Source: a virus. From it: a stretch of 45,498 bases of DNA. Positions 13,432-25,983 of the stretch are shown piece by piece. Location of the stretch: positions 1 to 45,498 of the IMG/VR virus record IMGVR_UViG_3300009151_003627; one strand, given 5' to 3'. The position numbers and the translations under genes were made by a program. The notes under the pieces are model-generated. The model was not told the DNA's origin and did no database searches. It saw only the letters and a program-made list of their open reading frames with translations. Within the stretch, counting starts at the first letter, position 1; every line of letters starts with the position of its first letter.

Positions 13432-13460
13432 ATTATAACGCGGTTTCACGATAAAATCAA
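13432..13460 (-). promoter_or_regulatory. Early sigma70 promoter for DUF932 gene
   Basis: TTGATT-17-TATAAT, followed by TTAGTACATCTTAA, a downstream sequence shared with several other early promoters here. GTAACAG lies directly upstream of the -35 box. Confidence 0.7.
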
Positions 13461-13717
13461 CTGTTACTTTCGAAAATCTTGGAATATACATGTAATTTCT
13501 TTTGTTTTGCCATGATCATGTTACCAAATTCACTTGGTTCATACGTAACCACCTTGAATGCTTCGACCAAATCAAGCATACAGCGGAGATCGGCAAGTTC
13601 TTGCTTAAGTGATTGCTCATTTTCTGCTAAACCAAAGCGTCTGACCTTAGAAATAGCCTGAATCACCTCAGCGCACTCCTCCTGGAGTATAATTAAAATT
13701 TCATCGTTACGTTTCAT
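13457..13717 (-). CDS. MazG-like nucleotide pyrophosphohydrolase
   Basis: An 86-residue all-alpha NTP pyrophosphatase candidate: LQEECAEVIQAISKVRRFG holds the E-E-x-x-E metal site and LKQELADLRCML the second E-x-x-D. The family hydrolyses (d)NTPs to monophosphates and diphosphate, and phage members may shape the nucleotide pool or lower ppGpp. It overlaps the SprT-like gene by 4 bases (ATGA), giving a two-gene operon. Confidence 0.75.
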   Translation of the reverse strand: MKRNDEILIILQEECAEVIQAISKVRRFGLAENEQSLKQELADLRCMLDLVEAFKVVTYEPSEFGNMIMAKQKKLHVYSKIFESNS

Positions 13718-14208
13718 GGGTATTTTTCCTCTAAAATTGAACAGACCGTTTCGGCCAGGTACATCTGACGATTCCAGGCCTCTTGTTCCCAGGGCTGATC
13801 CCTGTAAGCCTTATAGGTAGTACCCTTCTTCCCAGGAGTACCGTTCCAGTGATGTAACCAACCTTTTCTCTGGACGTATTTCTTCTTTAGTTTACCTATG
13901 TGGTATTGCTCGGCATGAACTAATTCATGGGCAATTACTTCTAGAGCTTTAGCCCAGCCCAGTCTACAATCAATAACGGCCAGTTTACCCTCTACCATAT
14001 AGTAACCATTGGTATTTTTAGCCTTAATAGGAGCCACTCGAAACTGAACGTCTCTGGGTAGATCCAATTGCTTACGAAACTCTGGCAAAGACCTTTTAAT
14101 CATTAAAGCAATAACCTTGGCAGACTTAGTATGGGTATAGATAGCCGAGGCAGACATATAGATGCCCTTACTAACCATCTTATCGGTACTTTTAATTTCA
14201 CTGATCAT
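13714..14208 (-). CDS. SprT-like zinc metalloprotease-fold protein
   Basis: A 164-residue protein with HELVH at residues 94-98 (VIAHELVHAEQYH), the HExxH zinc motif, in a context resembling SprT/SprT-like domains. The start has AGGAG nine bases upstream. SprT/Spartan proteins cut DNA-protein crosslinks in eukaryotes, while phage members are uncharacterised. First gene after its own promoter and coupled to the MazG-like gene. Confidence 0.7.
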   Translation of the reverse strand: MISEIKSTDKMVSKGIYMSASAIYTHTKSAKVIALMIKRSLPEFRKQLDLPRDVQFRVAPIKAKNTNGYYMVEGKLAVIDCRLGWAKALEVIAHELVHAEQYHIGKLKKKYVQRKGWLHHWNGTPGKKGTTYKAYRDQPWEQEAWNRQMYLAETVCSILEEKYP

Positions 14209-14232
14209 ATTATATTACTCCTTCGATACCCT

Positions 14233-14260
14233 ATTATAAAGGCTCGAGCGAAAAAATCAA
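14233..14260 (-). promoter_or_regulatory. Early sigma70 promoter for SprT-MazG operon
   Basis: TTGATT-16-TATAAT, then AGGGTAT, a downstream stretch shared with the promoters at 17210 and 21750. Directly preceded by AAGTAACTG, which abuts the end of the upstream operon. Confidence 0.65.
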
Positions 14261-14263
14261 CAG

Positions 14264-14617
14264 TTACTTAATTAAATGCTGAGCCAGTACCATGCATGAT
14301 AACCATGCCCACATGGTATTGAATCCAACCAGGGTAGGAAGGAATTTCTTATTGGATGCCCAGATTAATGTAATTGAAGTTGCCAAGGTCAGGAAATACA
14401 ACCACCATATAGAAATACCAAAAATAAGACCAGGAACGATAATAATAGCTTTGGCTAGCCAGCTCACAAATTCCACTGTATTATAATCAGTCCAATATTC
14501 TTTGGTTAACCACATACCGTAACATTCTCGTATTTTCTGCCATGTAATGTGCCAGTAACTAACCCCGATAAAAATTGCCCAAACGGCTGTTGCTGCTAAT
14601 ACTTGTTCTGTTGTCAT
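14264..14617 (-). CDS. Small multi-pass membrane protein
   Basis: A 117-residue protein with three or four hydrophobic segments: AATAVWAIFIGVSYW near the N-terminus, AIIIVPGLIFGISIWWLYFL in the middle, and FNTMWAWLSCMVLA at the end. I chose the ATG at 14617, which overlaps the upstream stop as ATGA. It is probably inserted in the host inner membrane. No family recognised. Confidence 0.65.
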   Translation of the reverse strand: MTTEQVLAATAVWAIFIGVSYWHITWQKIRECYGMWLTKEYWTDYNTVEFVSWLAKAIIIVPGLIFGISIWWLYFLTLATSITLIWASNKKFLPTLVGFNTMWAWLSCMVLAQHLIK

Positions 14618-14922
14618 GCTGTAATCCATTTCGTTTCAGTTTTAAACATAATGCTTTCGTTACCATCGAAGTCTTCGATAATAAATTCGGTACCGGGAGG
14701 AACCCAGGCAACAGCCAGATCGGAGGCACCACCGTAATAATGATCCCCGTAAACCGTTTTGCAGTAAAGTTCTATAGTCTCCGAAGAGGTTTTCTCCAGT
14801 ACCATATCTACAACTTTGGGATCAAAGAGCAATTCGGCTATATTGTGCCACGTATACCAGCCGGCACCAAAGCCGGGAGAATACAAGACAGCTACCAGCC
14901 CGTTTTCAGTCTTTTTTTGCAT
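14614..14922 (-). CDS. Conserved phage protein, unknown function
   Basis: A 102-residue soluble protein rich in aromatic and glycine residues (SPGFGAGWYTWHN near residue 15; YGGASDLAVAWVPPG near residue 63). The later part suggests a small beta-rich domain. It sits in an overlapping chain of short genes. I do not recognise a named function. Confidence 0.65.
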   Translation of the reverse strand: MQKKTENGLVAVLYSPGFGAGWYTWHNIAELLFDPKVVDMVLEKTSSETIELYCKTVYGDHYYGGASDLAVAWVPPGTEFIIEDFDGNESIMFKTETKWITA

Positions 14923-15070
14923 ATTCTTTCCTTATCAGTTTGGCAAACTTCTTAAGTTCCTTATCGTAGTCACACGACCAATCGATGTTGCCCTTGCCGG
15001 GACCCCAGGACGAGTCATCCCATATCACAAAGCCGGCTTTCTTAGCCAGTTTTTTAATCTTTTTTTTCAT
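14906..15070 (-). CDS. Small lysine-rich protein (54 aa)
   Basis: Starts MKKKIKKLAKKAGFVIWDD and contains SSWGPGKGNIDWSCDYD in the middle, ending in another basic helix. The ATG at 15070 overlaps the preceding stop as ATGA, and the frame overlaps the next gene by 17 bases, which supports it as a real coupled gene. The D-W-S-C-D-Y core resembles small acidic/aromatic segments in phage proteins. Function unknown. Confidence 0.6.
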   Translation of the reverse strand: MKKKIKKLAKKAGFVIWDDSSWGPGKGNIDWSCDYDKELKKFAKLIRKEYAKKD

Positions 15071-15270
15071 TCTGTTACCTCAAAGAAATCTTTAATTAGT
15101 TGACCGGTTTTTTTATCTCCGTTAAATACAGCAATCTTCGTACATTCAAATATTATCATTTGGGCGAACCTTTCCGGATCTATCAACAACACCGATTGCA
15201 TCTGACCATCAACCAGTATGGTCTTGTATACCTTAGATAACTCGGCAAATTGTTTAATCTTTGGATTCAT
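15067..15270 (-). CDS. Hypothetical early protein (67 aa)
   Basis: Starts MNPKIKQFAELSKVYK. Predicted alpha/beta, with IDPERFAQMIIFECTKIAVFN in its second half, a pattern seen in small phage proteins that precede other unknown genes. Overlaps the next gene as ATGA and the previous one by 17 bases. Function unknown. Confidence 0.6.
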   Translation of the reverse strand: MNPKIKQFAELSKVYKTILVDGQMQSVLLIDPERFAQMIIFECTKIAVFNGDKKTGQLIKDFFEVTE

Positions 15271-15556
15271 ATAATTTCACCATGGTAATTTTAGCCTGTT
15301 TCTTGATATCTTCTAATACGGTCATGGCGTAGAACGACATCCCGTACCTCTTCTTATAACAGGTATAGACTGAACTAGATTTATTCCTGATAATATATGA
15401 ATCTTCTAACTCTTCTACCTCGGTGATACCGGATGAGAGCCTCCAGCTATCGGCCCCAGTCCATCCCCCGTACCAGGAAGAGAGGATTTTCTGGGTCTTC
15501 ACACCTTCATAATCTAACTCAATCACCACCCATTTGTCGGGTGTATATTCACTCAT
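15254..15556 (-). CDS. Hypothetical early protein (100 aa)
   Basis: I chose the ATG at 15556 (MSEYTPDKWVVIEL), which overlaps the upstream stop by 8 bases; the longer in-frame start lies inside that gene. The sequence looks beta-rich, with YGGWTGADSWRLSSGIT near residue 30 and VYTCYKKRYGMS near 64. Function unknown. Confidence 0.6.
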   Translation of the reverse strand: MSEYTPDKWVVIELDYEGVKTQKILSSWYGGWTGADSWRLSSGITEVEELEDSYIIRNKSSSVYTCYKKRYGMSFYAMTVLEDIKKQAKITMVKLYESKD

Positions 15557-15728
15557 TGACATTCTCCATATCAAACCACTCATACAGTTCATGCATGATA
15601 CTTTGCTTGATCTGGTCTGTTATCTGTTCTTCTGTAGGATTATCATTGTGTTTAAATGCACGTCTATAGCCATAGGCCAGACCATTCTCAATACACATCT
15701 CTAATACAGGTAAAAATTTAGGTTTCAT
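15549..15728 (-). CDS. Hypothetical early protein (59 aa)
   Basis: Frame MKPKFLPVLEMCIENG... ending ...EWFDMENVNE. A mostly helical protein with the NPTEEQITDQIKQSIMHELY amphipathic helix. It overlaps the next gene by 8 bases, consistent with a real coupled gene. Function unknown. Confidence 0.6.
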   Translation of the reverse strand: MKPKFLPVLEMCIENGLAYGYRRAFKHNDNPTEEQITDQIKQSIMHELYEWFDMENVNE

Positions 15729-15742
15729 AGTAATTCACACAT

Positions 15743-15856
15743 TCATAATATAAGCAATAATAACAGCCACCAGGGCGATGCCTCATTATAGATGATAAAG
15801 CATACAAAGGCAATCTTTACCAGTAAAGAACAGAAGTAATAGGAATACTGGTTCAT
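15743..15856 (-). CDS. Membrane peptide (37 aa)
   Basis: Frame MNQYSYYFCSLLVKIAFVCF... with two hydrophobic stretches separated by YNEASP and ending WWLLLLLIL. The ATG shares one base with the preceding stop (TAATG), typical of coupled phage genes. It probably inserts in the inner membrane; function unknown. Confidence 0.5.
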   Translation of the reverse strand: MNQYSYYFCSLLVKIAFVCFIIYNEASPWWLLLLLIL

Positions 15857-16086
15857 TACTTGAACATTACCTTATTACGGCGTTTAATCTCCCGATCCAT
15901 ATCCATGATCCAGTCCATGATGGTCCTGGTGTTGTACATGGTATCGTACCCGTTAACGCGGAGTTTTCGCCTGCGATCTTCGGCGTACCCGTGGAGGGTC
16001 CTCACCGTGTTGTACAGATGGTTGGTTTCCATCTCTTTAATGGGGATTGCGCCATTCTTGGATGGCCATGCAGTTAGACGTGACAT
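15856..16086 (-). CDS. Conserved small phage protein (76 aa)
   Basis: The start is the ATG at 16086 (MSRLTAWPSKNG), with AAAGGA nine bases upstream. The motif IPIKEMETNHLYNTVRTL followed by a basic helix, IMDWIMDMDREIKRRN, recurs in many phage proteins of unknown role that open with a tryptophan/lysine turn. It is the first gene of the 14.3-16.1 kb chain. Confidence 0.65.
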   Translation of the reverse strand: MSRLTAWPSKNGAIPIKEMETNHLYNTVRTLHGYAEDRRRKLRVNGYDTMYNTRTIMDWIMDMDREIKRRNKVMFK

Positions 16087-16306
16087 AATAAAGTTCCTTT
16101 CTAGGGATTGTTCCACGGGGTTTTTCTAGCGCAAAAATTTTCTCCAGAGGGAGTTCTAGAGCTAAATTCTATCACACCGAGTTGTTGCGCGCGGAAATTT
16201 TTAAACATAGGTATAAGTAACTGTGCCTGAAACCTGGTTGATAGAGTAACTATACTTTTTTTTGAGAAAGTGAGTACCACTGTTTTCTATACAGTAGCCT
16301 GTACTG
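16087..16306. other. Intergenic region without a gene
   Basis: Two hundred and twenty bases with no plausible frame. It holds a weak hairpin (ACTGT-7-ACAGT near 16283) and an AAGTAACTG...GAGTAACTATACTTTTTTTT stretch at 16215-16265 that resembles the inverted GTAAC repeats seen near 18.1 and 20.2 kb. No sigma70 promoter of the local consensus was found for the gene at 16086, but one must exist here or further upstream. Confidence 0.4.
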
Positions 16307-16507
16307 TTATTCTTCTCCGTAGTAGTCTGCCATCTCGTCCACTACTTCTTCTGTGTAGGGTACGAATTCTTGGTCGTTCCACTGTTCGGCCTTCTGAATC
16401 AATTCCTCGGCCATACTAGGATGTATACGGAGAATACGTACGATTTCGTGTTCGGTGTAGCCTAGAATCAACATCTCGGCTGCTTGCTCAATAGAATCTT
16501 TCATCAT
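16307..16507 (-). CDS. Helical hypothetical protein (66 aa)
   Basis: Mostly alpha-helical: EMLILGYTEHEIVRILRIH resembles a helix-turn-helix pair, followed by an acidic tail (VVDEMADYYGEE). A DNA-binding role is possible but not shown. It overlaps the membrane peptide upstream as ATGA. Confidence 0.55.
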   Translation of the reverse strand: MMKDSIEQAAEMLILGYTEHEIVRILRIHPSMAEELIQKAEQWNDQEFVPYTEEVVDEMADYYGEE

Positions 16508-16605
16508 TGACCTTTCATCATGAACAGCATATAATAGAAGAAGGGGCCGCCAATCAAGGTGGCCATCATGGTTGCTTGTACCAGCTCTTTAAAAAACTGC
16601 TTCAT
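16504..16605 (-). CDS. Membrane peptide (33 aa)
   Basis: Frame MKQFFKELVQATMMATLIGG...FFYYMLFMMKGQ: a short amphipathic start, one membrane span and a basic tail. It sits 1 base after the upstream stop and overlaps the next gene as ATGA. Function unknown. Confidence 0.5.
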   Translation of the reverse strand: MKQFFKELVQATMMATLIGGPFFYYMLFMMKGQ

Positions 16606-16606
16606 C

Positions 16607-16933
16607 TTAGGCTCCCAAAGCGGCGAATGGGTTACCCTTGGCAGTAGGAGCATTAGCCAAGAAAGCATCAATCTCTTTGAGCTTTTGTGCCTTCTTAGTG
16701 GCTGTAGTGCCCTGGACAGACTCAGAGACCTTCTTATATTGTGGAGATACCTTGGCCATCACCTCGTCCACGTTAGAAGCGGAGAACAAGATCTTAGAAG
16801 CTTTAGTATGGTATACGAAAGCATTAGAGCGGGACACGCCCAAGATGTTCATGATCTCGGATAAAGCCAGGGCCTTATCAGGAGTATTGCGAACGATTGA
16901 AACTGCTGTCTCGAGGTTAGTTACTTTAGTCAT
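16607..16933 (-). CDS. Putative HTH-type early protein (108 aa)
   Basis: The N-terminal half (ALSEIMNILGVSRSNAFVYHT) looks like a winged or simple helix-turn-helix. The C-terminal half is lysine/alanine-rich (TTATKKAQKLKEIDAFLANA) and ends NPFAALGA. A similar small helical domain ends the protein at 25607. The gene has its own sigma70 promoter with a 37-base leader carrying AAGGA. A transcription regulator is a reasonable guess. Confidence 0.55.
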   Translation of the reverse strand: MTKVTNLETAVSIVRNTPDKALALSEIMNILGVSRSNAFVYHTKASKILFSASNVDEVMAKVSPQYKKVSESVQGTTATKKAQKLKEIDAFLANAPTAKGNPFAALGA

Positions 16934-16969
16934 TTTGATTTCCTTGTGTGTTTGTGTTAAGATGTATCT

Positions 16970-17011
16970 ATTATAGTCTGGATCCGGATAAACGTCAAGT
17001 AATACCGGATC
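16970..17011 (-). promoter_or_regulatory. Early sigma70 promoter inside an inverted repeat
   Basis: TTGACG (16993-16998), 17-base spacer, TATAAT (16970-16975), then AGATACATCTTAA. A perfect 7-bp inverted repeat, GATCCGG (minus strand 17011-17005) and CCGGATC (16987-16981), flanks the -35 box and could be an operator. Confidence 0.7.
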
Positions 17012-17012
17012 T

Positions 17013-17204
17013 TTACGTAAGGTTATTACGTTCGGCCTGATCTTCTAAAATACAGGCTTCCATGGCCGCCTTGGCATCAGCTTTGTAATGATACCCGTCA
17101 ACCACATGCTTACCATCAACCACCAACTTCCACCCATTCTTAAGAACTGTACCGTTCTTGTTCATGGTGAAAATCGGCTCTATGGTGTACGTTTGCTTGC
17201 TCAT
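17013..17204 (-). CDS. Hypothetical early protein (63 aa), leaderless
   Basis: Starts MSKQTYTIEPIFTMN and looks like one small beta-beta-alpha domain (GWKLVVDGKHVVDGYHYKAD). The ATG lies only 5 bases after the -10 box, so the transcript should begin at or next to the start codon with no ribosome site, a leaderless mRNA. Function unknown. Confidence 0.6.
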   Translation of the reverse strand: MSKQTYTIEPIFTMNKNGTVLKNGWKLVVDGKHVVDGYHYKADAKAAMEACILEDQAERNNLT

Positions 17205-17209
17205 ACCCT

Positions 17210-17238
17210 ATTATAGTCTCTTTTTAATAACCGTACAA
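17210..17238 (-). promoter_or_regulatory. Early sigma70 promoter, leaderless
   Basis: TTGTAC-17-TATAAT, followed by AGGGT and then the ATG of the gene ending at 17013. The expected transcription start coincides with the start codon. Confidence 0.6.
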
Positions 17239-17247
17239 CTGGTAGGG

Positions 17248-17466
17248 TTATTCAGTAACTGGCGCCAGAAGGCGTTGGAATCCACGGAATGCGGTTCTGA
17301 AGGCGTTCCTCTGAACTGAATCCAGTTCGTCGTAGTTATCAGACATCCAGGTCATAGTTTCCAGAAGACCCATGCCCATCGACACGGCCTCTTGTTGAAC
17401 GATATCCAGGGCTTCTGCCTGGCTCATAGTCTCGAAAGACTGGTCTAAAGTTTTCCAATTGCTCAT
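17248..17466 (-). CDS. Helical hypothetical protein (72 aa)
   Basis: Mostly alpha-helical, starting MSNWKTLDQSFETMSQAEAL, with amphipathic helices and the C-terminal FRTAFRGFQRLLAPVTE. Last gene of a four-gene chain (17248-18042) linked by ATGA or TAATG overlaps. Function unknown. Confidence 0.6.
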   Translation of the reverse strand: MSNWKTLDQSFETMSQAEALDIVQQEAVSMGMGLLETMTWMSDNYDELDSVQRNAFRTAFRGFQRLLAPVTE

Positions 17467-17648
17467 TTAATTCTCCGACGTGTTATAGGTGTGAACATGC
17501 AACCTTCTGTAGGAAAGCCGCGCTTTGCAATTGCACCAAGCAGGGCATAAGAACCGCCCCAGCTGTATGCACTCCTCTTTACCTTCTTCTCAGCATACAC
17601 CGATACCAGTATGCCATCGGTGTTAACGTATTGGCTAATGGCTTTCAT
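17463..17648 (-). CDS. Hypothetical early protein (61 aa)
   Basis: Starts MKAISQYVNTDGILVSVYAE, then AYSWGGSYALLGAIAKRGFP, ending in a basic tail (TPITRRRIK). Overlaps both neighbours by four bases. Function unknown. Confidence 0.55.
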   Translation of the reverse strand: MKAISQYVNTDGILVSVYAEKKVKRSAYSWGGSYALLGAIAKRGFPTEGCMFTPITRRRIK

Positions 17649-17800
17649 ACAGCCTCCACTTGCTTAAATACACGCAAGATTTCGGGGCACGCTTCACGGG
17701 GCAGACCCTCCTCAACCATCAGATCGATGATGAGGTCTTCGGAGAGATCGCAGGCAATAGCATCTGTGATGAGCATATGCAGCTCAGACATTCTAGACAT
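17645..17800 (-). CDS. Hypothetical early protein (51 aa)
   Basis: Frame MSRMSELHMLITDAIACDLS...RVFKQVEAV. A helical, acidic protein with VEEGLPREACPEILRVFK. It starts one base into the preceding stop (TAATG) and overlaps the next gene as ATGA, so it is well supported by context. Function unknown. Confidence 0.6.
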   Translation of the reverse strand: MSRMSELHMLITDAIACDLSEDLIIDLMVEEGLPREACPEILRVFKQVEAV

Positions 17801-18042
17801 TATACAGACTCCTTGTTATCCATCATTTCACATAAAATAAACTTGGCCACGTTCATCTTCTGACGGGCATACTCTACAGCACGAGGACCGGCACCCATTG
17901 CCAACATCTCCTGGCAGTCAGAGAGAATGCCCATCACCACCATCTCTTGACCGGACATCTTAGCGGTCAAGGATTCCATGTACTGGCTACGGATCTGAGC
18001 TTCCGTCATGCCGTACATTTTAGTTTCTGAATACGTTGTCAT
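17800..18042 (-). CDS. Helical hypothetical protein (80 aa)
   Basis: I chose the ATG at 18042 (MTTYSETKMYGM), which has AAAGG upstream; the longer start lies close to the -10 box. It is mostly alpha-helical and methionine-rich (MSGQEMVVMGILSDCQEML). First gene of its operon, behind a near-consensus promoter. Function unknown. Confidence 0.6.
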   Translation of the reverse strand: MTTYSETKMYGMTEAQIRSQYMESLTAKMSGQEMVVMGILSDCQEMLAMGAGPRAVEYARQKMNVAKFILCEMMDNKESV

Positions 18043-18068
18043 AATAGCCTTTCTGTTGAACATACGTT

Positions 18069-18097
18069 ATTATAACCGAGTTCGGACCAAACGTCAA
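18069..18097 (-). promoter_or_regulatory. Early sigma70 promoter
   Basis: TTGACG-17-TATAAT then AACGTATGTT, with overlapping hairpins (ACCC/GGGT and CAACC/GGTTG) and CGTAACG directly upstream of the -35 box. Confidence 0.75.
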
Positions 18098-18132
18098 CCT
18101 AATACCCTTACGTTACGGTTGGGTACTTCGCG

Positions 18133-18184
18133 AAAGTAACTAGATCATTTGCATTTCATTCTGCATATAATATAGTTACTTTTT
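18133..18184. repeat. 52-bp inverted-repeat element, copy 1
   Basis: Matches 43 of 52 bases with 20197-20248. Both copies are bounded by AAAGTAACTA and TAGTTACTTT, contain TGCATATAA, end in a T run on the plus strand, and lie between the end of one operon and the next early promoter. Confidence 0.6.
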
Positions 18185-18256
18185 GGTGAAAGCGTTTAAG
18201 AAGACGGCAAAATACTATTTTCTTCGCTATAAATACATACCAATTTAAAATAAATA

Positions 18257-18277
18257 TTAGTAAGTCTACCTTACTAA
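18257..18277 (-). terminator. Rho-independent terminator
   Basis: Minus-strand hairpin TTAGTAAG-GTAGA-CTTACTAA (8-bp stem, 5-base loop) followed by TATTTATTTT, directly after the stop of the gene ending at 18278. Confidence 0.7.
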
Positions 18278-18475
18278 TTATTGCATTCTAGTCTTTAAAA
18301 ATGCCATTAACTCCGTAATATCTTTTCTACGGAATGCTTTAGATGAAAGTATCACATAAGGATTAATAGTACCCATTAATTGTTCCTTCTTATTAAGAAA
18401 CTCATATTCTGGATTATTATTAATAAAATACCTAACATCATCGTAATTTAATCCAATAATAAACTTTTTAGTCAT
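18278..18475 (-). CDS. Hypothetical early protein (65 aa)
   Basis: Starts MTKKFIIGLNYDDVRYFINN; then a linker and an amphipathic helix, KDITELMAFLKTRMQ. The ATG overlaps the upstream stop as TAATG. Last gene before a strong terminator. Function unknown. Confidence 0.6.
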   Translation of the reverse strand: MTKKFIIGLNYDDVRYFINNNPEYEFLNKKEQLMGTINPYVILSSKAFRRKDITELMAFLKTRMQ

Positions 18476-18723: not shown

Positions 18724-18724
18724 A

Positions 18725-18926: not shown

Positions 18927-19817
18927 TCAGTTCCCCTGAGTTAAAACGTACTTGGCTAAATCCTTCCATTGAGGATTACCGGTATTGGCAATCTTCGTAA
19001 CCGCAATCAAGCTACGGAGAGACATATTAGGAATCCTACCCAAATTAGACTTCAGGAAGTCCAGAGCCAGACCCTTGGCAATAGCATTTACTTCCGGAAG
19101 AAACTCATCCGAAGTAGCAATCACTTCCATTCGTTCGAGTTTCTGAGCTTCAGTCATCGACAAGTCAACAACCAGGCTACGGGTACGAATCGCCTGATCG
19201 ATCTTATCTAAAGCCATATTCGATACGAATACGATAGAACCGGTAAACTCAAAAGAGCGCGGCAGATCATCGTCTCTCATATCGGCATTCCATGAGATAT
19301 AGCGCTTAGAATAAGAATCCAAAGCACCCTTCAAGAGGTTCTTAGCCACATCGTCTTTCAGGATACTATCGCAATCGTCAAAAACGATAACCATACCGTT
19401 ATTCTCAAACAACGTACGATAGAGACCTTTAGCGGTAGAGTAACCCTTAACAACCGTATAGGACTTAGCCTTATTGACCTTTGCACCGATAGCAAAATTA
19501 GCCAGGTCAGTCAGATTCGTAAAACCGTTCTTTTCCAAAGACTTCAGAACCGTATACGACTTACCAAGACCACCTTCGCCGGTAATAACGGCAGAAGGGA
19601 GAGTCTTCTGAACGATCATATCAACCATCTGCTCAACAAAGCTAAAACGCTGGTTAATACCGAACTCGGACTCAACAGGAGCAGGAGCCTCTTTGAAAGC
19701 CAACTTCTGACCGTCCAACTGACGCTGAACATAGTAGCGAGAAGTAGACTTAACAACCACCTTACCGTTAACCAGACCGTGGAATTTACCTTCGGAGAAT
19801 TTAATTTCTGTATTCAT
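18927..19817 (-). CDS. AAA+ ATPase
   Basis: A 296-residue P-loop ATPase. Walker A is GEGGLGKS at residues 80-87, Walker B VIVFDD at 143-148, a sensor-1-like VFVSNM follows, and the arginine-containing region AIRTRSLVVDLS comes after. The first 60 residues form a short basic N-terminal domain. Such phage proteins are often MoxR-like or loader ATPases, but no partner gene is recognised. It has its own promoter. An ATP-driven chaperone or helicase-loader role is possible. Confidence 0.8.
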   Translation of the reverse strand: MNTEIKFSEGKFHGLVNGKVVVKSTSRYYVQRQLDGQKLAFKEAPAPVESEFGINQRFSFVEQMVDMIVQKTLPSAVITGEGGLGKSYTVLKSLEKNGFTNLTDLANFAIGAKVNKAKSYTVVKGYSTAKGLYRTLFENNGMVIVFDDCDSILKDDVAKNLLKGALDSYSKRYISWNADMRDDDLPRSFEFTGSIVFVSNMALDKIDQAIRTRSLVVDLSMTEAQKLERMEVIATSDEFLPEVNAIAKGLALDFLKSNLGRIPNMSLRSLIAVTKIANTGNPQWKDLAKYVLTQGN

Positions 19818-19843
19818 GTGTGTGTTCCTTTAAACGATGACCA

Positions 19844-19885
19844 ATTATAAGCTAGTTTCGGCGTTACGGCAACTTAAGCCGTAAC
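19844..19885 (-). promoter_or_regulatory. Early promoter overlapping a terminator-like hairpin
   Basis: TTGCCG (19867-19872), 17-base spacer, TATAAT (19844-19849) for the AAA+ gene. A perfect 8-bp hairpin, GTTACGGC-TTAAGTT-GCCGTAAC (19863-19885), ends the upstream gene: its first arm contains the last codons and the stop of that gene, and its second arm contains part of the -35 box. Confidence 0.6.
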
Positions 19886-20101
19886 CCTTGCTGAATACCA
19901 GCCTTCTTTTTCAATCTTGCGGTTAGCCCGGCGAATGGTGTTGTAAGCTTTCTCAACGCCTGGAGTTGAGAGAGAGGCATGAATTGAACCGTTAGCCTGA
20001 AGGAAGGCAACAGCATCGTGCTTGGCTTTATAAGTCTTGAAAGCAATTGCAGGGATTAACATTTCGTAACCGCCTACTGGTGTGAACTTTACTTTTTCCA
20101 T
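19874..20101 (-). CDS. Hypothetical early protein (75 aa)
   Basis: I chose the ATG at 20101 (MEKVKFTPVGGYEM), which has AAGGAG seven bases upstream. A basic, helical protein (AYNTIRRANRKIEKEGW). Single-gene operon with its own promoter. Function unknown. Confidence 0.6.
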   Translation of the reverse strand: MEKVKFTPVGGYEMLIPAIAFKTYKAKHDAVAFLQANGSIHASLSTPGVEKAYNTIRRANRKIEKEGWYSARVTA

Positions 20102-20125
20102 ATCGTTTCTCCTTAACATGTACCA

Positions 20126-20153
20126 ATTATAGTCCAAATTAGAGAAACGTCAA
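20126..20153 (-). promoter_or_regulatory. Early sigma70 promoter
   Basis: TTGACG-16-TATAAT, then TGGTACATGTTAAGGAG, sharing TACAT-C/G-TTAA with the promoters at 13432 and 16970. A small hairpin TACGG-TTAATAT-CCGTA lies upstream. Confidence 0.75.
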
Positions 20154-20196
20154 CTGTTACGGATATTAACCGTACATTTTGTAAGGTATTCGTGCA

Positions 20197-20248
20197 AAAG
20201 TAACTAGTTAATTTGCCGTTTAAAATGCATATAAAATAGTTACTTTTT
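20197..20248. repeat. 52-bp inverted-repeat element, copy 2
   Basis: Second copy of the element at 18133; it lies between the end of the operon at 20249 and the next promoter. See copy 1. Confidence 0.6.
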
Positions 20249-20587: not shown

Positions 20588-20663
20588 TTTTATTAATATC
20601 CCACAGCACAATTCCTACCCCGGTTACCATGATTATTATGAAAATAATTGTATCGGTATTCAC
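20580..20663 (-). CDS. Membrane peptide with GTG start (27 aa)
   Basis: Frame from GTG at 20663: MNTDTIIFIIIMVTGVGIVL, then WDINKND. GGAG lies six bases before the GTG and the end overlaps the next gene by 8 bases. One membrane span; function unknown. Confidence 0.45.
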   Translation of the reverse strand: MNTDTIIFIIIMVTGVGIVLWDINKND

Positions 20664-20664
20664 C

Positions 20665-20865: not shown

Positions 20866-20866
20866 T

Positions 20867-21049
20867 TTAATCCTTTTCAAGCTGAATCTCTTGCCCCAGA
20901 CGCTGAACTTCTTTAATAGCATTTACCCGGACAGCTGCCTCCCAGCCTGCCCATGCCCAATAAGCCGGGCTTCCCTCTCTGTACGGGTTCATACTACCGT
21001 TGTAGTCGCCGTTCCACCAATCTCCGAATTCATCGCTTGTTGCTGACAT
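20867..21049 (-). CDS. Hypothetical early protein (60 aa)
   Basis: Tryptophan-rich: FGDWWNGDYNGS, then WAWAGWEAAVRVNAIKEV. The WEAAV segment is common in phage early proteins of unknown role. Sits one base after the next gene's stop. Function unknown. Confidence 0.6.
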   Translation of the reverse strand: MSATSDEFGDWWNGDYNGSMNPYREGSPAYWAWAGWEAAVRVNAIKEVQRLGQEIQLEKD

Positions 21050-21204
21050 TAATTTACCTCAATATTTAAATTGTATATAGGAGTATTATCTAGTTGAGAT
21101 AACCAAAGAGCGACCCTATCTAAGACGTCTTCCTTATCGTTTGTTTCGTAAACGAAATCAGAATGAAACTCATCAGTTACGGTTAACTTAAAGCGCGGGA
21201 TCAT
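21049..21204 (-). CDS. Hypothetical early protein (51 aa)
   Basis: The start is the ATG at 21204 (MIPRFKLTVTDEFHSDFVYE); the longer frame lies inside the upstream gene. Two strands followed by a helix, ending in a beta strand. Overlaps the upstream gene by 17 bases. Function unknown. Confidence 0.5.
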   Translation of the reverse strand: MIPRFKLTVTDEFHSDFVYETNDKEDVLDRVALWLSQLDNTPIYNLNIEVN

Positions 21205-21349
21205 TTGAGCCGCTTTCCATTCTCGTAAGAACGTAGTCTGCAACCGCAATCGCAAAAGGTCTTAGATCCTCTACCTTCACCCACTTACCTGAAACGTCAG
21301 TAGGAACTTTTTCAATAAGAACGTCTAAAATAGGTCTTTGTGCTTCCAT
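21188..21349 (-). CDS. Hypothetical early protein (53 aa)
   Basis: The start is the ATG at 21349 (MEAQRPILDVLIEKVPTDVS), which has AAGGGA upstream. Ends with a helix, FAIAVADYVLTRMES. Function unknown. Confidence 0.5.
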   Translation of the reverse strand: MEAQRPILDVLIEKVPTDVSGKWVKVEDLRPFAIAVADYVLTRMESGSNDPAL

Positions 21350-21371
21350 AATTTCCCTTTTTCTCCACATA

Positions 21372-21527
21372 TTATTGTTCCATCGGATCGCCGAGCTCGT
21401 ACTCAGTAATCTCAACCATTTCCCAGACCCCACCTTTGCGGTTGAACTGATCCAGGAGTTGAATAGCTAACTCCTTATTACGGACAATGTATCCGTTCTC
21501 ATCACCCATTTTTCTAATTCGCCACAT
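21372..21527 (-). CDS. Hypothetical early protein (51 aa)
   Basis: Frame MWRIRKMGDENGYIVRNKEL...EYELGDPMEQ. Small and mixed alpha/beta. Starts one base after the gene upstream and ends 22 bases before the next. Function unknown. Confidence 0.5.
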   Translation of the reverse strand: MWRIRKMGDENGYIVRNKELAIQLLDQFNRKGGVWEMVEITEYELGDPMEQ

Positions 21528-21528
21528 A

Positions 21529-21726
21529 TTAATACCTTATACAAACTTCTTCAATACAATCGTTAGTATGATTCATAGTATAACGAATTTTACTAATAAT
21601 CTCTCTAACCTCTTCGGGATAAGGAATATCATATGTATGAGAAAGATAGTATTCAATCTCATAAGGCTTTACACCTGATTCTAATTTTTCAATTACATCG
21701 ATTATAATATCTTTAATCTTTGACAT
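21529..21726 (-). CDS. Helical hypothetical protein (65 aa)
   Basis: Starts MSKIKDIIIDVIEKLESGVK, then YLSHTYDIPYPEEVREIISK. Acidic, helical, possibly a small regulator. First gene of its operon, with its own promoter and AAGGA site. Confidence 0.6.
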   Translation of the reverse strand: MSKIKDIIIDVIEKLESGVKPYEIEYYLSHTYDIPYPEEVREIISKIRYTMNHTNDCIEEVCIRY

Positions 21727-21749
21727 TTCGTTTTCCTTCTCTATACCCT

Positions 21750-21778
21750 ATTATAGTCCAGAAACAAAGAACCCGCAA
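21750..21778 (-). promoter_or_regulatory. Early sigma70 promoter
   Basis: TTGCGG-17-TATAAT, then AGGGTAT. The -35 hexamer is part of the right arm of the hairpin at 21770-21795. Confidence 0.7.
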
Positions 21779-21795
21779 CTGTTACGTTACGGGTT
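21770..21795 (-). terminator. Terminator-promoter hairpin, copy 1
   Basis: AACCCGTAAC-GTAACA-GTTGCGGGTT: a 10-bp stem with one G.U pair, followed by a mixed T stretch. All 26 bases are identical at 24071-24096. It ends the operon terminating at 21806 and supplies the -35 box of the next. Confidence 0.65.
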
Positions 21796-21805
21796 AAGTT
21801 TTCTC

Positions 21806-22339
21806 CTAAGTAGAATTGTAAGCAATAACAGTTTTTATTTTATCCGATAGATTAGGCTTTGAGCAGTGTTCGAAAAAAGAAGGGAACGATAATATCTGGC
21901 CTTCTTTTACTTCTACTTGAAATTCTTTACCTAAAAATCTAAAAGTTGTTTTTGAGGCCTCAGCTGGGAGGTCAACATAATATATACTATTAAATACACT
22001 TTTACTATGTCTATGCCAATCATGAAAATCATTTTTTGCATATTGTTGATACCATATATTAGCTATAGATATGTTTTCATGTTTATAATCTAATAACTTA
22101 GATAAACTTTCATTATGTTGTTTGAAAATAGGGTTAACTAAATCATAATAAGTCTCATCTTTATACTCAGATTTAATATAGAAATCTGAATTATATAAAC
22201 TTTCCACTTGTTTATTCTTGTACCCAAATAGAGGGTTGTTTTTTAAAAAATTTAAAAATTGTTGTTTAATGTTAAAATGATCTTTTACATCAGAAACATA
22301 AACACAGCATGGCACATCCCCTGTTTTAATCTCTATCAT
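21806..22339 (-). CDS. 2-oxoglutarate/Fe(II) oxygenase-like protein
   Basis: A 177-residue cupin-type oxygenase candidate. HDWHRHSKSVFNSIYYVDLP (starting His106) gives the first metal-ligand region with H106, H109 and H111, and EGQILSFPSFFEH (His158) gives the second, followed by KIKTVIAYN as the cosubstrate strand. This is the layout of phage 2OG-Fe(II) oxygenases of the prolyl-4-hydroxylase-like group. The start is the ATG at 22339, within the upstream gene's end. AT content matches the glycan genes, unlike most neighbours, suggesting a later insertion. Substrate unknown. Confidence 0.7.
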   Translation of the reverse strand: MIEIKTGDVPCCVYVSDVKDHFNIKQQFLNFLKNNPLFGYKNKQVESLYNSDFYIKSEYKDETYYDLVNPIFKQHNESLSKLLDYKHENISIANIWYQQYAKNDFHDWHRHSKSVFNSIYYVDLPAEASKTTFRFLGKEFQVEVKEGQILSFPSFFEHCSKPNLSDKIKTVIAYNST

Positions 22340-22556
22340 ATAATCCAAATTCTTTACGGATAATTTCACCATAAAACCAGCCTCCCTGGCGTCTTACTTT
22401 ATCAACCTTTTTTGCGCATTCATTAATAAGAAGAACAGCAAACTTCTCGTATGCTCCCTCAATATCTTCCCCGGTCATGTTCTTCGGCCAAGGCTCTCCA
22501 TTAAAATCCACATAAAGCCCGGCTTCAATGGCTAATGCCTTGATCTTTTTATTCAT
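22326..22556 (-). CDS. Conserved phage protein (76 aa)
   Basis: Starts MNKKIKALAIEAGLYVDFNG, with a predicted helix FAVLLINECAKKVDKVRR. This arrangement recurs in many phage early proteins with no assigned function. Overlaps the next gene by 14 bases. Confidence 0.65.
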   Translation of the reverse strand: MNKKIKALAIEAGLYVDFNGEPWPKNMTGEDIEGAYEKFAVLLINECAKKVDKVRRQGGWFYGEIIRKEFGLYDRD

Positions 22557-22569
22557 GCTTTAAAAATTT

Positions 22570-22737
22570 CTAGTGATCTTCATAATGGTCTTTTAAATCG
22601 AGATAGGGATTAAGAATAGAATGAGGAATAATACCATCCCCATATTGCTCAATTAATTGATCTATTGCCTTAATCAACACCCTAGCTAGTAATACTTCTT
22701 TATGAGTCCCAATAGGACTGGTTTCAAAGTCTGACAT
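22570..22737 (-). CDS. Hypothetical early protein (55 aa)
   Basis: Frame MSDFETSPIGTHKEVLLARV...KDHYEDH. Helical, acidic C-terminus. Ends 13 bases before the next gene. Function unknown. Confidence 0.55.
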   Translation of the reverse strand: MSDFETSPIGTHKEVLLARVLIKAIDQLIEQYGDGIIPHSILNPYLDLKDHYEDH

Positions 22738-22746
22738 ATAACTCCC

Positions 22747-22947
22747 TTAATAGTTCTGAATTAACCAACCTGAAAGTTCTTTAACTCGATGCTCTAACGT
22801 CGATATGGTAGTATGTATATGCCCTGTGTCATGGGGCTGAATTTGTTTCTTTAAGTACTCAATCTCTTCCTTAAGAAACTGAATATGATTGGGAGGATGA
22901 GATATACCCTCAATAATACTATGATCTCTGATATCTTTAATAATCAT
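22747..22947 (-). CDS. Helical hypothetical protein (66 aa)
   Basis: Starts MIIKDIRDHSIIEGISH; a long amphipathic helix, FLKEEIEYLKKQIQ, and a second, HTTISTLEHRVKELSGWLI, suggest a coiled coil. Overlaps the upstream gene as ATGA. Function unknown. Confidence 0.6.
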   Translation of the reverse strand: MIIKDIRDHSIIEGISHPPNHIQFLKEEIEYLKKQIQPHDTGHIHTTISTLEHRVKELSGWLIQNY

Positions 22948-23129
22948 ACAAAATCCTTAAACATTTTTTTTCGGCCTTCTACAGTTAACTCTTGGTCAAA
23001 GATTTCTTTAGTTCTCTGAAGCATAACGCATGCCATCATAAGAAGCTCTTCCCTAGAGTCACACATCATAATTTGTTTCTCAATGGGTTCGGCTAGCTCA
23101 CCCATTCTTATAGATACTTCATCTCTCAT
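22944..23129 (-). CDS. Helical hypothetical protein (61 aa)
   Basis: Starts MRDEVSIRMGELAEPIEK; helices with MMACVMLQRTKEIFDQ. The start is one base into the upstream gene's stop. Function unknown. Confidence 0.55.
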   Translation of the reverse strand: MRDEVSIRMGELAEPIEKQIMMCDSREELLMMACVMLQRTKEIFDQELTVEGRKKMFKDFV

Positions 23130-23434
23130 TAATCTTCCTTTTCCTGCATGAAAAACTCATCCAAGTGCCCCTGAACTCGCTCGTCATCAGAAGAATAGAA
23201 TACCATATCACCAAGTACAGTCACATGCTCTTCATCCACGTATTCAAACCCGCCATAGTAATCTAGGCCTTGTCGATCACTCTTACGAACGGCTATATGA
23301 TCTTCGTTAATAAAGAGTTGATAGGCAGATCTATTATCTAAACCAACTTCTGTAGGCTTTACAACGCGGAACTCGTCATCAATCAATTGATCAACCATTT
23401 CGTTAAGCACCTGTTTAATATTATAGATATCCAT
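23129..23434 (-). CDS. Hypothetical early protein (101 aa)
   Basis: An acidic, mixed alpha/beta protein starting MDIYNIKQVLNEMVDQLIDD and ending in an acidic helix, DDERVQGHLDEFF. Overlaps the upstream gene by 14 bases. Function unknown. Confidence 0.6.
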   Translation of the reverse strand: MDIYNIKQVLNEMVDQLIDDEFRVVKPTEVGLDNRSAYQLFINEDHIAVRKSDRQGLDYYGGFEYVDEEHVTVLGDMVFYSSDDERVQGHLDEFFMQEKED

Positions 23435-23801
23435 AAGTTACTCCTTCTAAGTTAACTAACATCATTTCATTATAAGTCTTACGAATAGCAGGGTATTTAA
23501 TCTCACCATCGTACTCCATCTGGCTTTTCTCCAACCAGGTCTGATAGTCGTCTTCAACCTTCTCGAAGCCGATAATATTACTACGATAGAAGTCGTTAGA
23601 CTCATCGATAATGAAGCGGAGTTCATCTACAATCATACGAAGGTTCTTATCGGCAAACGAATCGTTCCAGCGAAAGCCTTCGACGTCAACAATATAATCG
23701 GTTCCGCCCTTCATCTTCCAATACTGGGGAACTTCGCCTTCGCCATCCCAATCATGGGCGCCATAATTCTCTTGATCTTGGGTAAAGATATACAATTTCA
23801 T
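23421..23801 (-). CDS. Conserved phage protein, ENYGAHDWDGEG type (126 aa)
   Basis: The first residues MKLYIFTQDQENYGAHDWDG followed by EGEVPQYWKMKGG define a small family seen in many phages, with an aromatic-rich, probably beta core. Biochemical function unknown. The ATG overlaps the upstream stop as ATGA. Confidence 0.75.
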   Translation of the reverse strand: MKLYIFTQDQENYGAHDWDGEGEVPQYWKMKGGTDYIVDVEGFRWNDSFADKNLRMIVDELRFIIDESNDFYRSNIIGFEKVEDDYQTWLEKSQMEYDGEIKYPAIRKTYNEMMLVNLEGVTYGYL

Positions 23802-24025
23802 ACAAACTCACATTCTTGGTTATTGAACAATTCCCACTCTTGACCGCATTTATAATTATAGTTGTATTCTTCAGCCATTGCAATACATTCTTCCATTACG
23901 TCAGAGTAAAATACTACCTTACCCAAGCGTACACCATTAACAGGGTTATCCCATTCAGTCACATCGTAACGCATACGCTTATCATCGTAATCGTATGTAA
24001 ACTTGGCTTTGTAATAATCTTGCAT
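23798..24025 (-). CDS. Hypothetical early protein (75 aa)
   Basis: I chose the ATG at 24025 (MQDYYKAKFTYDYDD), which has AAAGGAGAT seven bases upstream. A small acidic, tyrosine-rich protein. First gene of the operon that runs from its own promoter down to about 21.8 kb. Function unknown. Confidence 0.65.
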   Translation of the reverse strand: MQDYYKAKFTYDYDDKRMRYDVTEWDNPVNGVRLGKVVFYSDVMEECIAMAEEYNYNYKCGQEWELFNNQECEFV

Positions 24026-24050
24026 TTCGTTATCTCCTTTAGATGTATCT

Positions 24051-24079
24051 ATTATATACCAAAAAAAGAAAACCCGCAA
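24051..24079 (-). promoter_or_regulatory. Early sigma70 promoter
   Basis: TTGCGG-17-TATAAT, then AGATACATCTAAAGGAG, sharing the ATACATCT stretch of the 16970 promoter. The -35 box lies in the right arm of the hairpin at 24071-24096. Confidence 0.75.
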
Positions 24080-24096
24080 CTGTTACGTTACGGGTT
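24071..24096 (-). terminator. Terminator-promoter hairpin, copy 2
   Basis: Identical in all 26 bases to 21770-21795 (10-bp stem, 6-base loop), here followed by TTTTCTTTTTTT, so a working terminator for the operon ending at 24122 is likely. Confidence 0.75.
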
Positions 24097-24121
24097 AGAA
24101 AGTAAATAAGACTAGTTACTT

Positions 24122-24553
24122 TTAGCAGTATTCATAGTTAACGGATTCTTGATTCTCCCTGAAGGTAATCGCACCGTTTTTATGATGAAAGTTCTTTGCC
24201 ATATCTGTCTTGGGAGATAAAGTGACAAATCGTTTGATTTCAGGTTTAGTTTCTTTAATGTGTTTTACTGCATCAAAGATTAAGTTTCTTCCTGCCCCAG
24301 GAACATAACTCCAAATGGTATAAAATACCGCTGTGTCAGCTTGGCCGTCAATGAATAATTCACTTTCGGAGGTAGGAATAGATGGTTGGTACGATACACA
24401 GGTGATAGCTTTTGCTTTGTTTTCATCATCTTTAAGGACAAAAATGTCCTTGCTTTCGCCAAATCTTTGTGTATGAGGTATGTGAGGGCGCACGGGGTCT
24501 TGACTTAACAAACTAAAAAAGCTATCAGTCAGGCTTCTGATCTGATATAACAT
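24122..24553 (-). CDS. GNAT-like acetyltransferase fold protein
   Basis: A 143-residue protein. Strand-turn features (AVFYTIWSYVPGAGRNLIFD) resemble the GNAT acetyl-CoA loop, and the following HIKETKPEIKRFVTLSPKTD with AKNFHHKNGAI matches the region around motif B. The core R/Q-x-x-G-x-G/A is imperfect (PGAGRN), so this may be a divergent or non-catalytic member. Last gene of its operon, before a strong terminator. Confidence 0.5.
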   Translation of the reverse strand: MLYQIRSLTDSFFSLLSQDPVRPHIPHTQRFGESKDIFVLKDDENKAKAITCVSYQPSIPTSESELFIDGQADTAVFYTIWSYVPGAGRNLIFDAVKHIKETKPEIKRFVTLSPKTDMAKNFHHKNGAITFRENQESVNYEYC

Positions 24554-24704
24554 TTTTGTTTCTTTCTTCTATTAATTTAAATGCTTCGTCTTCTATAACT
24601 GCGTCATCTATTTCTTTAGGAGACTTACCAAAAACAGAGTTCCAGTTACTACTGTATTTATCAAAGTCGACGCCGAGAGGGCGAGCTCTTGATCCTTTAC
24701 TCAT
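24525..24704 (-). CDS. Conserved small T4-like phage protein (59 aa)
   Basis: Frame MSKGSRARPLGVDFDKYSSN..., then WNSVFGKSPKEIDD. Small proteins beginning MSKGS-x-x-R-P and ending with a helix are widespread in T4-like phages; their role is unknown. The start overlaps the upstream stop as ATGA and the end overlaps the next gene by 29 bases. Confidence 0.65.
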   Translation of the reverse strand: MSKGSRARPLGVDFDKYSSNWNSVFGKSPKEIDDAVIEDEAFKLIEERNKNVISDQKPD

Positions 24705-25120
24705 GGCTTCCTCTTTGCTATAGTGCTGTGTGCGTACTCTTCACCGAATGACATGACATCATAATCAGCAATAATAAGTCCCTTACGCTCCAAGGAAGCA
24801 ACAGCGGCAAGAGTAATAAACGAGTTCAAATGCTTATATACATCTTCAATACATTCAGTCTCTACCCCCTCCGCTTTAGCTAACATCTCTGCCAGGAGAA
24901 GGATATCGCTGAGCCTCTCGTCCTCTTCATCCTCTGATGCTTCAAGAATTAACTGAAGGTCATCAGTTCTCGCCCTTTGAAGAAACGTTCCTATAGACAT
25001 ATAGGGGTTCTTCATTAGATCGGCAGCAAGCAACCTCACCATAGGAAGTATACTATTATTGGTTAATATCTTCTCATAGTTAATTTCCATAGGAAAATTA
25101 AAGTCGAAATCCTCATCCAT
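24701..25120 (-). CDS. Acidic helical protein (139 aa)
   Basis: Starts MDEDFDFNFPMEINYEK and contains long helices (LQLILEASEDEEDERLSDIL; YKHLNSFITLAAVASLERK). It overlaps the nucleotidase gene by 8 bases. Possibly a structural or scaffolding-associated protein; no family recognised. Confidence 0.6.
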   Translation of the reverse strand: MDEDFDFNFPMEINYEKILTNNSILPMVRLLAADLMKNPYMSIGTFLQRARTDDLQLILEASEDEEDERLSDILLLAEMLAKAEGVETECIEDVYKHLNSFITLAAVASLERKGLIIADYDVMSFGEEYAHSTIAKRKP

Positions 25121-25610
25121 ACGAAATTACCTCGTTAAGTCGTTTAATTGAAGCATCCACATCTCCTGTATGATAGATAGCAATTCCTCCAACTGCAGTC
25201 CATTGCTCAATATTAGATGGACGATCATCTATTAAGATATCACCAGGCTTGCACCACTTTTGTTTATGATGACTATAAGGTCCAATATCCATTCTCATAC
25301 CAGGAAAGTATTTATTAACCCATGCCTGCTTATCATCTTTAGCCGATGGGATAGTAGAACGACGAGGAACCGCAGTAAGAAATCCTACATGAAACCTCGT
25401 AGATAAACTCTTAACATATGCAACTAATTTAGTAGCATCAGGCATCAAAGAAAACTGATAGTAAAGACGATCAACAGAGGCAAGCCTCTCCCATTCTTCA
25501 TCAGTTAAATCTGTAGAAGAATCCCATCCAATCTTTCGACCAAGAAGGATTGAAACATACGAATCAAAGTCTGCAACCACCCCATCCATATCTAGATATA
25601 TTGTTCTCAT
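25113..25610 (-). CDS. 5'(3')-deoxyribonucleotidase (HAD family)
   Basis: A 165-residue HAD phosphatase. Motif I is DMDGV (D7 and D9), GFLTAVPRR gives the motif II serine/threonine region, and DILIDDRPSNIEQW the motif III-IV acidic pair. NT5C-type enzymes dephosphorylate deoxynucleoside monophosphates and occur in T4-like phages as part of nucleotide metabolism. The ATG overlaps the upstream stop as ATGA. Confidence 0.85.
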   Translation of the reverse strand: MRTIYLDMDGVVADFDSYVSILLGRKIGWDSSTDLTDEEWERLASVDRLYYQFSLMPDATKLVAYVKSLSTRFHVGFLTAVPRRSTIPSAKDDKQAWVNKYFPGMRMDIGPYSHHKQKWCKPGDILIDDRPSNIEQWTAVGGIAIYHTGDVDASIKRLNEVISYG

Positions 25611-25933
25611 TTAGTTCTTTCTTTCACCTTCTTCAAGTAGATAGAGGCATTACCTTTAGAGATATCGCCTAGCTTCAACTGGAAGAGAGTAACAAATTGT
25701 GCATCGGTTAGACCTTGATTGTTCTTAAACAATTCAATAGCTTGATCGATTTTAGAGGCGCCAGAAGAGGCAGGCTTTGCAACACTCTTCTTAGGCAAAG
25801 GTTTAGGTTTAGTTACGGCTCTCTCAACAGGTATAGCCATAACGAATTTAGCAGGGACATCTGGAGTTGATTTATTAATCAAATCCGTATATTCAGTTGC
25901 AGTAACTTCAACATCATTAAAAAAATAACGCAT
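25607..25933 (-). CDS. Two-part hypothetical protein (108 aa)
   Basis: I chose the ATG at 25933 (MRYFFNDVEVTATEY), which has AAGGAGAT upstream. A short N-terminal domain, a proline/lysine/serine linker, and a small helical C-terminal domain (DAQFVTLFQLKLGDISKGNA) like that of the protein at 16607. First gene of its operon. A nucleic-acid-binding role is a guess. Confidence 0.55.
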   Translation of the reverse strand: MRYFFNDVEVTATEYTDLINKSTPDVPAKFVMAIPVERAVTKPKPLPKKSVAKPASSGASKIDQAIELFKNNQGLTDAQFVTLFQLKLGDISKGNASIYLKKVKERTK

Positions 25934-25954
25934 ATATCTCCTTATCAATACGTT

Positions 25955-25983
25955 ATTATAACCTACTTCGGACGTTACGGCAA
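25955..25983 (-). promoter_or_regulatory. Early sigma70 promoter
   Basis: TTGCCG-17-TATAAT, then AACGTATTGATAAGGAG, sharing AACGTAT with the 18069 promoter. ACGTAACG motifs lie upstream. Confidence 0.7.

Follow-up and report, generated by a model that had tools for sequence, protein, structure and literature searches.

Introduction

Four described systems come closest to the subject of this work, a family of promoters on the minus strand of a 45,498-bp stretch of viral DNA (IMG/VR record IMGVR_UViG_3300009151_003627; hereafter the window, which is one entire viral record), at some of which the predicted transcript begins with an AUG. The first is the promoter-early stem-loop (PeSL) cassette of T4-like phages, and our comparison with it leans in part on what Arbiol et al. 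and Comeau et al. reportedly described. In the passages of PMC4503421 that treat these cassettes, with reference to Arbiol et al. 2010 and Comeau et al., a repeated sigma70-like early promoter and a stem-loop lie between small variable genes around which gene order is shuffled, and the promoters studied here are alike in this; they differ in phage lineage and sequence, in having a clear stem-loop at only part of the promoters, and in following a frame rule for 5' AUGs that goes without mention in those passages. The second system comprises the early promoters of T4 itself (PMC2988021), which likewise are host sigma70 promoters with extra conserved positions and stand before small nonessential genes, but are built from UP, -35, TGn and -10 elements, whereas in the present family -15 is a G, TGn is nearly absent, and GTAAC lies farther up. 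T4 also makes little use of a 5' AUG.

The third system is the leaderless mRNA. In examples such as lambda cI (PMC9031893, PMC4965119) the start codon stands at the 5' end, as predicted at two promoters of the window (17210 and 40806), where it lies 5-6 nt past the -10 box; here, however, the promoters are early ones, from T4-like phages and from other uncultured phages, and the 5' ends are predicted. In a fourth system, Beck, Fleming and Janssen (2016, PMC4965119) found that E. coli mRNAs with both a 5' AUG and a Shine-Dalgarno (SD) leader can work as leaderless and as leadered messages; they chose out-of-frame cases and set in-frame ones aside, and one upstream open reading frame in their list ends in an ATGA overlap. 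Promoters 18069 and 20126 resemble these mRNAs in pairing an AUG at the predicted 5' end with an SD-led gene downstream. The phage cases differ in being predicted, in spanning many early genes, and in having the two starts mostly in frame. The phage set would be the counterpart of the in-frame E. coli cases. Our reading, to which we give a probability of about 0.68, is that the family consists of PeSL-type early promoters with the transcription start fixed on AT, and that a 5' AUG, where present, would make the early mRNA leaderless or dual-start.

Results and Discussion

A Family of Sigma70-Type Promoters

The strict pattern TTG-N19..21-TATAAT occurs 12 times on the minus strand between 13.0 and 26.2 kb, against 0.56 expected (the mean of 500 dinucleotide shuffles; sd 0.78, maximum 3), and once on the plus strand; over the whole window the counts are 21 and 2, against 2.4 expected. 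These sites are a real family of strong sigma70-type promoters, and the regularity that a preliminary description of the window had placed beyond a chance sigma70 match is borne out by these counts and by conservation outside the hexamers, which exceeds the bare needs of sigma70. A scan with a loose sigma70 consensus was uninformative (71 found, 57.7 expected). The same description listed ten minus-strand promoters with TTG followed by A or C: each has an exact TATAAT with TTG at 16-17 nt, and nine of the ten have the A or C, 17210 reading TTGTAC (Table 1). It missed an eleventh promoter at 40806, beyond the range reported, together with the hairpins at the -35 boxes, a repeat of 55 bp, and, at the predicted start, the AUG with its frame rule. 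The distance from the end of each of the 11 promoters to an ATG that opens a plausible gene is 5-36 nt. The promoters are most likely of the early class, a label given because of the sigma70 consensus and the gene context.

The window is assigned to a T4-superfamily phage because it encodes gp46/gp47-like SbcCD, UvsW, a DUF932 protein, and an nrdC.10-like protein. Its UvsW is nearest to those of Methylophilales phage Melnitz and Pelagibacter phage Mosig (~53-55% identity), no near DNA match among named phages was found over 13-26 kb, and an Rfam search returned four tRNAs and nothing else. The viral collection holds close relatives, including a record of 159,688 bp (G001, the 160-kb relative), and among them the same promoter family stands before orthologous genes and before different genes. 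Promoter anatomy was read from 52 nonredundant promoters of this close clade, 40 of them with a 17-nt spacer. In all 40 the base before TTG is C or G, and -15 is G in 80% and T in 8%, the T4-type extended -10 (TGn) being rare. Across the close clade ACG after TTG is also conserved, and 5-6 nt past TATAAT, where +1 is expected, there is a strong preference for AT, giving the geometry TATAAT-N(4-5)-Y^AT, with the caret before +1.

The sequences past the -10 box had been sorted into groups and taken as a shared initial transcribed sequence with an operator or antitermination role. The groups hold for AGATACATCT (16970, 24051), TAGTACATCTTAA / TGGTACATGTTAA (13432, 20126), AGGGTAT (14233, 17210, 21750), and AACGTAT (18069, 25955), with 19844 (TGGTCATC) falling in none, and TATAAT-N3-TACAT is found six times on the minus strand and never on the plus. 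The proposed role fares less well: start-site geometry, cassette duplication, and a constraint on 5'-terminal AUGs give the better fit.

A Predicted 5'-Terminal AUG Is Mostly Kept in Frame

A +1 ATG opens the gene directly at 17210 and 40806, and at 18069 and 20126 it is in frame with the SD-led start, with no stop codon between. Promoters with ATC, ATT or ATA in place of ATG at +1 served as the control for this frame relation. In a first set, 34 of 37 5' ATGs are in frame, compared with 33/86 control triplets (Fisher p = 1.3e-8). In an enlarged set of 287 nonredundant promoters across relatives, for which distant records were collected via homologues of early genes and not assigned as T4-like record by record, the figures are 43/53 and 51/129 (p = 2.6e-7), and for triplets both in frame and stop-free 41/53 and 29/129 (p = 7e-12). 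Counting per gene family of the downstream protein gives 30/39 against 23/72 (binomial p = 3e-8 for 30/39). The distance from the 5' ATG to the start is mainly 18, 24, or 27 nt, whereas control triplets are spread over 13-40 nt; a 322-kb relative (L047/G003) has 21, 24, or 27 nt at nearly every such promoter, and in the gene family of 18069 the eight 5'-ATG members of the enlarged set, and others elsewhere, are all in frame at 21 or 24 nt. Ribosomes appear to use the AUG at the 5' end, since its frame would otherwise be of no consequence.

That transcription would begin at the start codon is predicted from the position of the -10 box and is supported by a positional control on 12 large phage records plus the window. 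Where TATAAT has a -35 box, 69 ATGs are found at offset 6, of which 51 open a frame of 40 codons or more, compared with 8-23 at offsets 3, 4, 7, and 8; where the -35 box is missing, there are 18 at offset 6, seven of them open.

One alternative is that these are ordinary strong sigma70 promoters of the early class, multiplied as cassettes of PeSL type, whose starts are similar by ancestry and whose +1 ATG has no translational role. Near-identical copies within genomes (repeat families D4 and D6; three tandem copies in L058) speak for it, as do the hairpins and the gene shuffling described below. Ancestry does not explain, however, why ATG is in frame and stop-free relative to ATC, ATT, or ATA across 39 gene families, nor why the excess of ATG at offset 6 depends on a -35 box, and we consider this explanation unlikely.

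On the reading that we prefer, host RNA polymerase would start at the A of the AT 5-6 nt past TATAAT, and where the third base is G the mRNA would begin with AUG, at which ribosomes could initiate directly. This AUG would be the only start at 17210 and 40806, whose messages are predicted to be leaderless, and at 18069 and 20126 a second start in frame with the SD-led one, 18-27 nt on. Out-of-frame 5' AUGs would mostly be selected against, or would end at or beside the real start and so enable coupled translation. We incline, if only slightly, to a broader statement: that many uncultured T4-like phages place the early transcription start on AUG and so make leaderless or dual-start mRNAs, that selection keeps the leader between the two starts in frame, and that a cassette may carry its start to a new gene.

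A second sample was picked by pattern, the viral collection being scanned for TTGAC-N18-TATAAT-N6 followed by ATG or by ATC. An open reading frame (ORF) of at least 40 codons follows 88/125 of the ATGs and 33/168 of the control triplets (p = 2e-18). Where the ATG opens a short ORF before an SD-led start, the two overlap (4, 1, or 8 nt between its stop and the SD-led start) in nine of 14 classified cases, an arrangement like that of translational coupling. Pattern-picked cases with a separate SD-led start are mostly out of frame (3/13 in frame), which marks the in-frame dual start as a feature of the T4-like set and plain leaderless starts as general. We note that in the pattern-picked viral contigs (L138-L217) this promoter and ATG followed by a long ORF with no SD site are common in uncultured phages, from which it follows that leaderless phage genes may be widespread and under-annotated. 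A 50-kb scan of Pelagibacter phage Mosig for the frame rule gave too few sites, and a literature search on leaderless phage early transcripts returned nothing directly relevant.

Several observations weigh against the proposed use of the 5' AUG. The relatives share ancestry and their promoters are not fully independent, a dependence that counting by gene family lessens and does not remove; the junction test given below shares this weakness, through its reuse of genome pairs. Ten of the 53 5' ATGs are out of frame, several of which overlap or abut the real start and others do not, and seven of the 11 window promoters start on ATC, ATA, or ATT. ATG among promoters with AT at +1 is not clearly more frequent than base composition predicts, so the constraint may reflect avoidance of harm and not a gain. 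T4 has no clear pattern: among 21 SD-led promoter-like sites there is one offset-6 ATG, in frame but interrupted by a stop.

If the reading is right, the early genes of phages would amount to a large natural collection of messages with leaderless or dual starts. Start-codon annotation would change in many phage genomes, with proteins lengthened at the N terminus by 6-9 residues, and small genes overlooked for want of an SD site would be recovered. Initiation on leaderless messages is thought to involve 70S ribosomes and a different response to initiation factors (PMC9031893), by which route such genes might stay translated while phage or host alters initiation.

Stem-Loops, Repeats, and Gene Shuffling

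A hairpin (z < -2) lies across the -35 box at five of the 11 window promoters (24051, 21750, 19844, 17210, and 16970) and clade-wide at 30% of 74 promoters. Two window promoters have terminator-like stems with T tracts and one more has a terminator just upstream, termination being predicted from sequence; such an upstream hairpin may also stop polymerase that reads in from the cassette before. At 18069 and 20126, TATAAT is preceded at 58-66 bp by an inverted repeat of 55 bp with a conserved loop (AAAAAGTAACTA...TAGTTACTTTT). The repeat recurs at the same near-constant distance in L114 (at 6151 and 8988; same contig as L002) and L099 (at 7516; same contig as L003), ahead of promoters that by position are L002 9413, L002 12251, and L003 9721 and that stand before other or orthologous genes. 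In the window as in the two relatives, every promoter with this repeat has an in-frame 5' ATG.

The PeSL picture is matched in several respects. The promoters are strong and sigma70-like, with near-consensus hexamers besides the excess of sites given above, their early timing being predicted, and similar copies recur in a plastic region of small genes (repeat families D2-D6 and D15, besides the tandem copies in L058). Gene order is shuffled among relatives, with a promoter at 242/726 broken and 89/416 conserved junctions (odds ratio 1.84; genome pairs are reused and not independent), and the nrdC.10-like gene occupies differing places with its own promoter. The promoters most likely sit in a shuffling region, as repeated units of promoter and stem-loop, each driving a single small gene or a few of them. 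The PeSL view of modular gene shuffling would thereby extend to uncultured phages.

The (C)GTAAC Element

A GTAAC-like sequence ~2-3 nt upstream of TTG, at about -42, is conserved among close-clade promoters. The recurrence of CGTAAC just upstream of the -35 box, as first described, holds in part: it is found there at 20126, 21750, 24051, and 25955, and as AGTAAC at 13432 and 14233, and lies farther up at 18069, within the spacer at 19844, and nowhere at 16970 or 17210. A regulon is conceivable, in which a phage or host protein bound at (C)GTAAC flanking the -35 box tunes or shuts off the early promoters, and it could coexist with the preferred reading. In its favor, CGTAA is found upstream of 32/52 nonredundant close-relative promoters (1.9 expected), and in 21 cases the end of GTAAC is 2-3 nt away from TTG, minor peaks lying ~11-12 bp to either side, near the usual contact spacing of the RNA polymerase alpha C-terminal domain. 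CGTAAC is not enriched genome-wide, however (window: 13 and 18 seen, 12.0 and 15.5 expected; 160-kb relative: 43 and 16 seen, 36.5 and 27.8 expected), and besides being missing at two promoters it is partly the arm of a terminator hairpin. Its GTAAC repeats are mostly direct and not dyad-symmetric; a strict dyad at the promoters was tried and rejected, inverted spacing being inconsistent. CGTAAC is a promoter-upstream element and not a genome-wide operator, and the repressor binding suggested earlier is so far unsupported, with no DNA-binding partner identified; we regard the regulon as doubtful. In a more distant phage (L119/G006), CGTAAC is fixed within the spacer (CGTAAC-N5-TATAAT) at several promoters and not upstream of the -35 box. 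Middle (MotA/AsiA-type) or late promoters, classes that T4 does use, are highly improbable here, since a good -35 hexamer stands at normal spacing where a MotA box would replace it (PMC2988021), and the T4 late core TATAAATA is not the recurring element.

Coordinates and Neighboring Genes

Table 1. Promoters and associated predicted features of the window. Promoters are named by the last T of TATAAT on the minus strand; a caret precedes the predicted +1.
Feature	Coordinates	Strand	Remarks
Promoter 13432, TTGATT-17-TATAAT	13425..13460	-	Predicted +1 A of ATC at 13425; DUF932 gene start 13401
Promoter 14233, TTGATT-16-TATAAT-AGGGT^ATC	14227..14260	-	Gene 13714-14208, weak metallopeptidase-like match
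Promoter 16970, TTGACG-17-TATAAT-AGATAC^ATC	16963..16998	-	Gene 16607-16933
Hairpin GATCCGG/CCGGATC enclosing -35 of 16970	16981..17011	-	z -2.8; arms present in relatives too
Promoter 17210, TTGTAC-17-TATAAT-AGGGT^ATG	17204..17238	-	Predicted +1 is the start codon
Predicted leaderless 63-aa gene of 17210	17013..17204	-	No family match
Hairpin AATAACC/GGTTATT across -35 of 17210	17226..17252	-	z -2.3
Promoter 18069, TTGACG-17-TATAAT-AACGT^ATG	18063..18097	-	5' ATG 18063, 21 nt upstream of SD-led ATG 18042, in frame
Predicted dual-start gene of 18069	17800..18063	-	87 aa from 5' AUG, 80 aa from SD-led AUG
55-bp inverted-repeat cassette element	18130..18184	-	~60 bp upstream of -10 box of 18069; repeats D3, I9
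Promoter 19844, TTGCCG-17-TATAAT-TGGTC^ATC	19838..19872	-	nrdC.10-like gene 18927-19817
Hairpin GTTACGGC/GCCGTAAC overlapping -35 of 19844	19863..19885	-	z -4.6
Promoter 20126, TTGACG-16-TATAAT-TGGTAC^ATG	20119..20153	-	5' ATG 20119, 18 nt upstream of SD-led ATG 20101, in frame
Predicted dual-start gene of 20126	19874..20119	-	81 aa from 5' AUG, 75 aa from SD-led AUG
55-bp inverted-repeat element, second copy	20194..20248	-	82% identical; ~65 bp upstream of -10 box of 20126
Promoter 21750, TTGCGG-17-TATAAT-AGGGT^ATA	21744..21778	-	-35 in 3' arm of terminator-like hairpin; gene 21529-21726
Terminator-like hairpin AACCCGTAACGTAACAGTTGCGGGTT	21770..21795	-	Weak T tract; z -2.6
Promoter 24051, TTGCGG-17-TATAAT-AGATAC^ATC	24044..24078	-	-35 in 3' arm of terminator-like hairpin, T tract is the spacer; gene 23798-24025
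Intrinsic-terminator-like hairpin AACCCGTAACGTAACAGTTGCGGGTT + TTCTTTTTTT	24071..24096	-	z -3.8
Promoter 25955, TTGCCG-17-TATAAT-AACGT^ATT	25949..25983	-	Gene 25607-25933
Intrinsic-terminator-like hairpin just upstream of 25955	26011..26035	-	
Promoter 40806 (eleventh), TTGACA-17-TATAAT-AGGTAC^ATG	40799..40834	-	Predicted +1 is the start codon
Predicted leaderless 104-aa gene of 40806	40485..40799	-	G001 orthologue, 92% identical, also starts at TATAAT-AGGGC^ATG

Elsewhere in the window, two tryptophan-halogenase-like genes (7074-8627 and 9477-10658) share the phage fragment with a DegT-type aminotransferase (3948-5063) and a glycosyltransferase-like gene (1046-1783), a set unusual for a T4-like phage. 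Two plus-strand ORFs among minus-strand genes, 27763-28566 and 28566-29114, have GIY-YIG (just below cutoff) and NUMOD3 matches and are probably inserted homing endonucleases. A peptide deformylase gene lies at 29476-30051 (minus strand) and a DnaJ-domain gene at 8656-9234 (plus strand). Near the tRNA cluster at 10679-11081, the stretch 11290-11340 holds a GTATACATTTATAATATAATGTATAC palindrome with a -35-like TTGCAC upstream.

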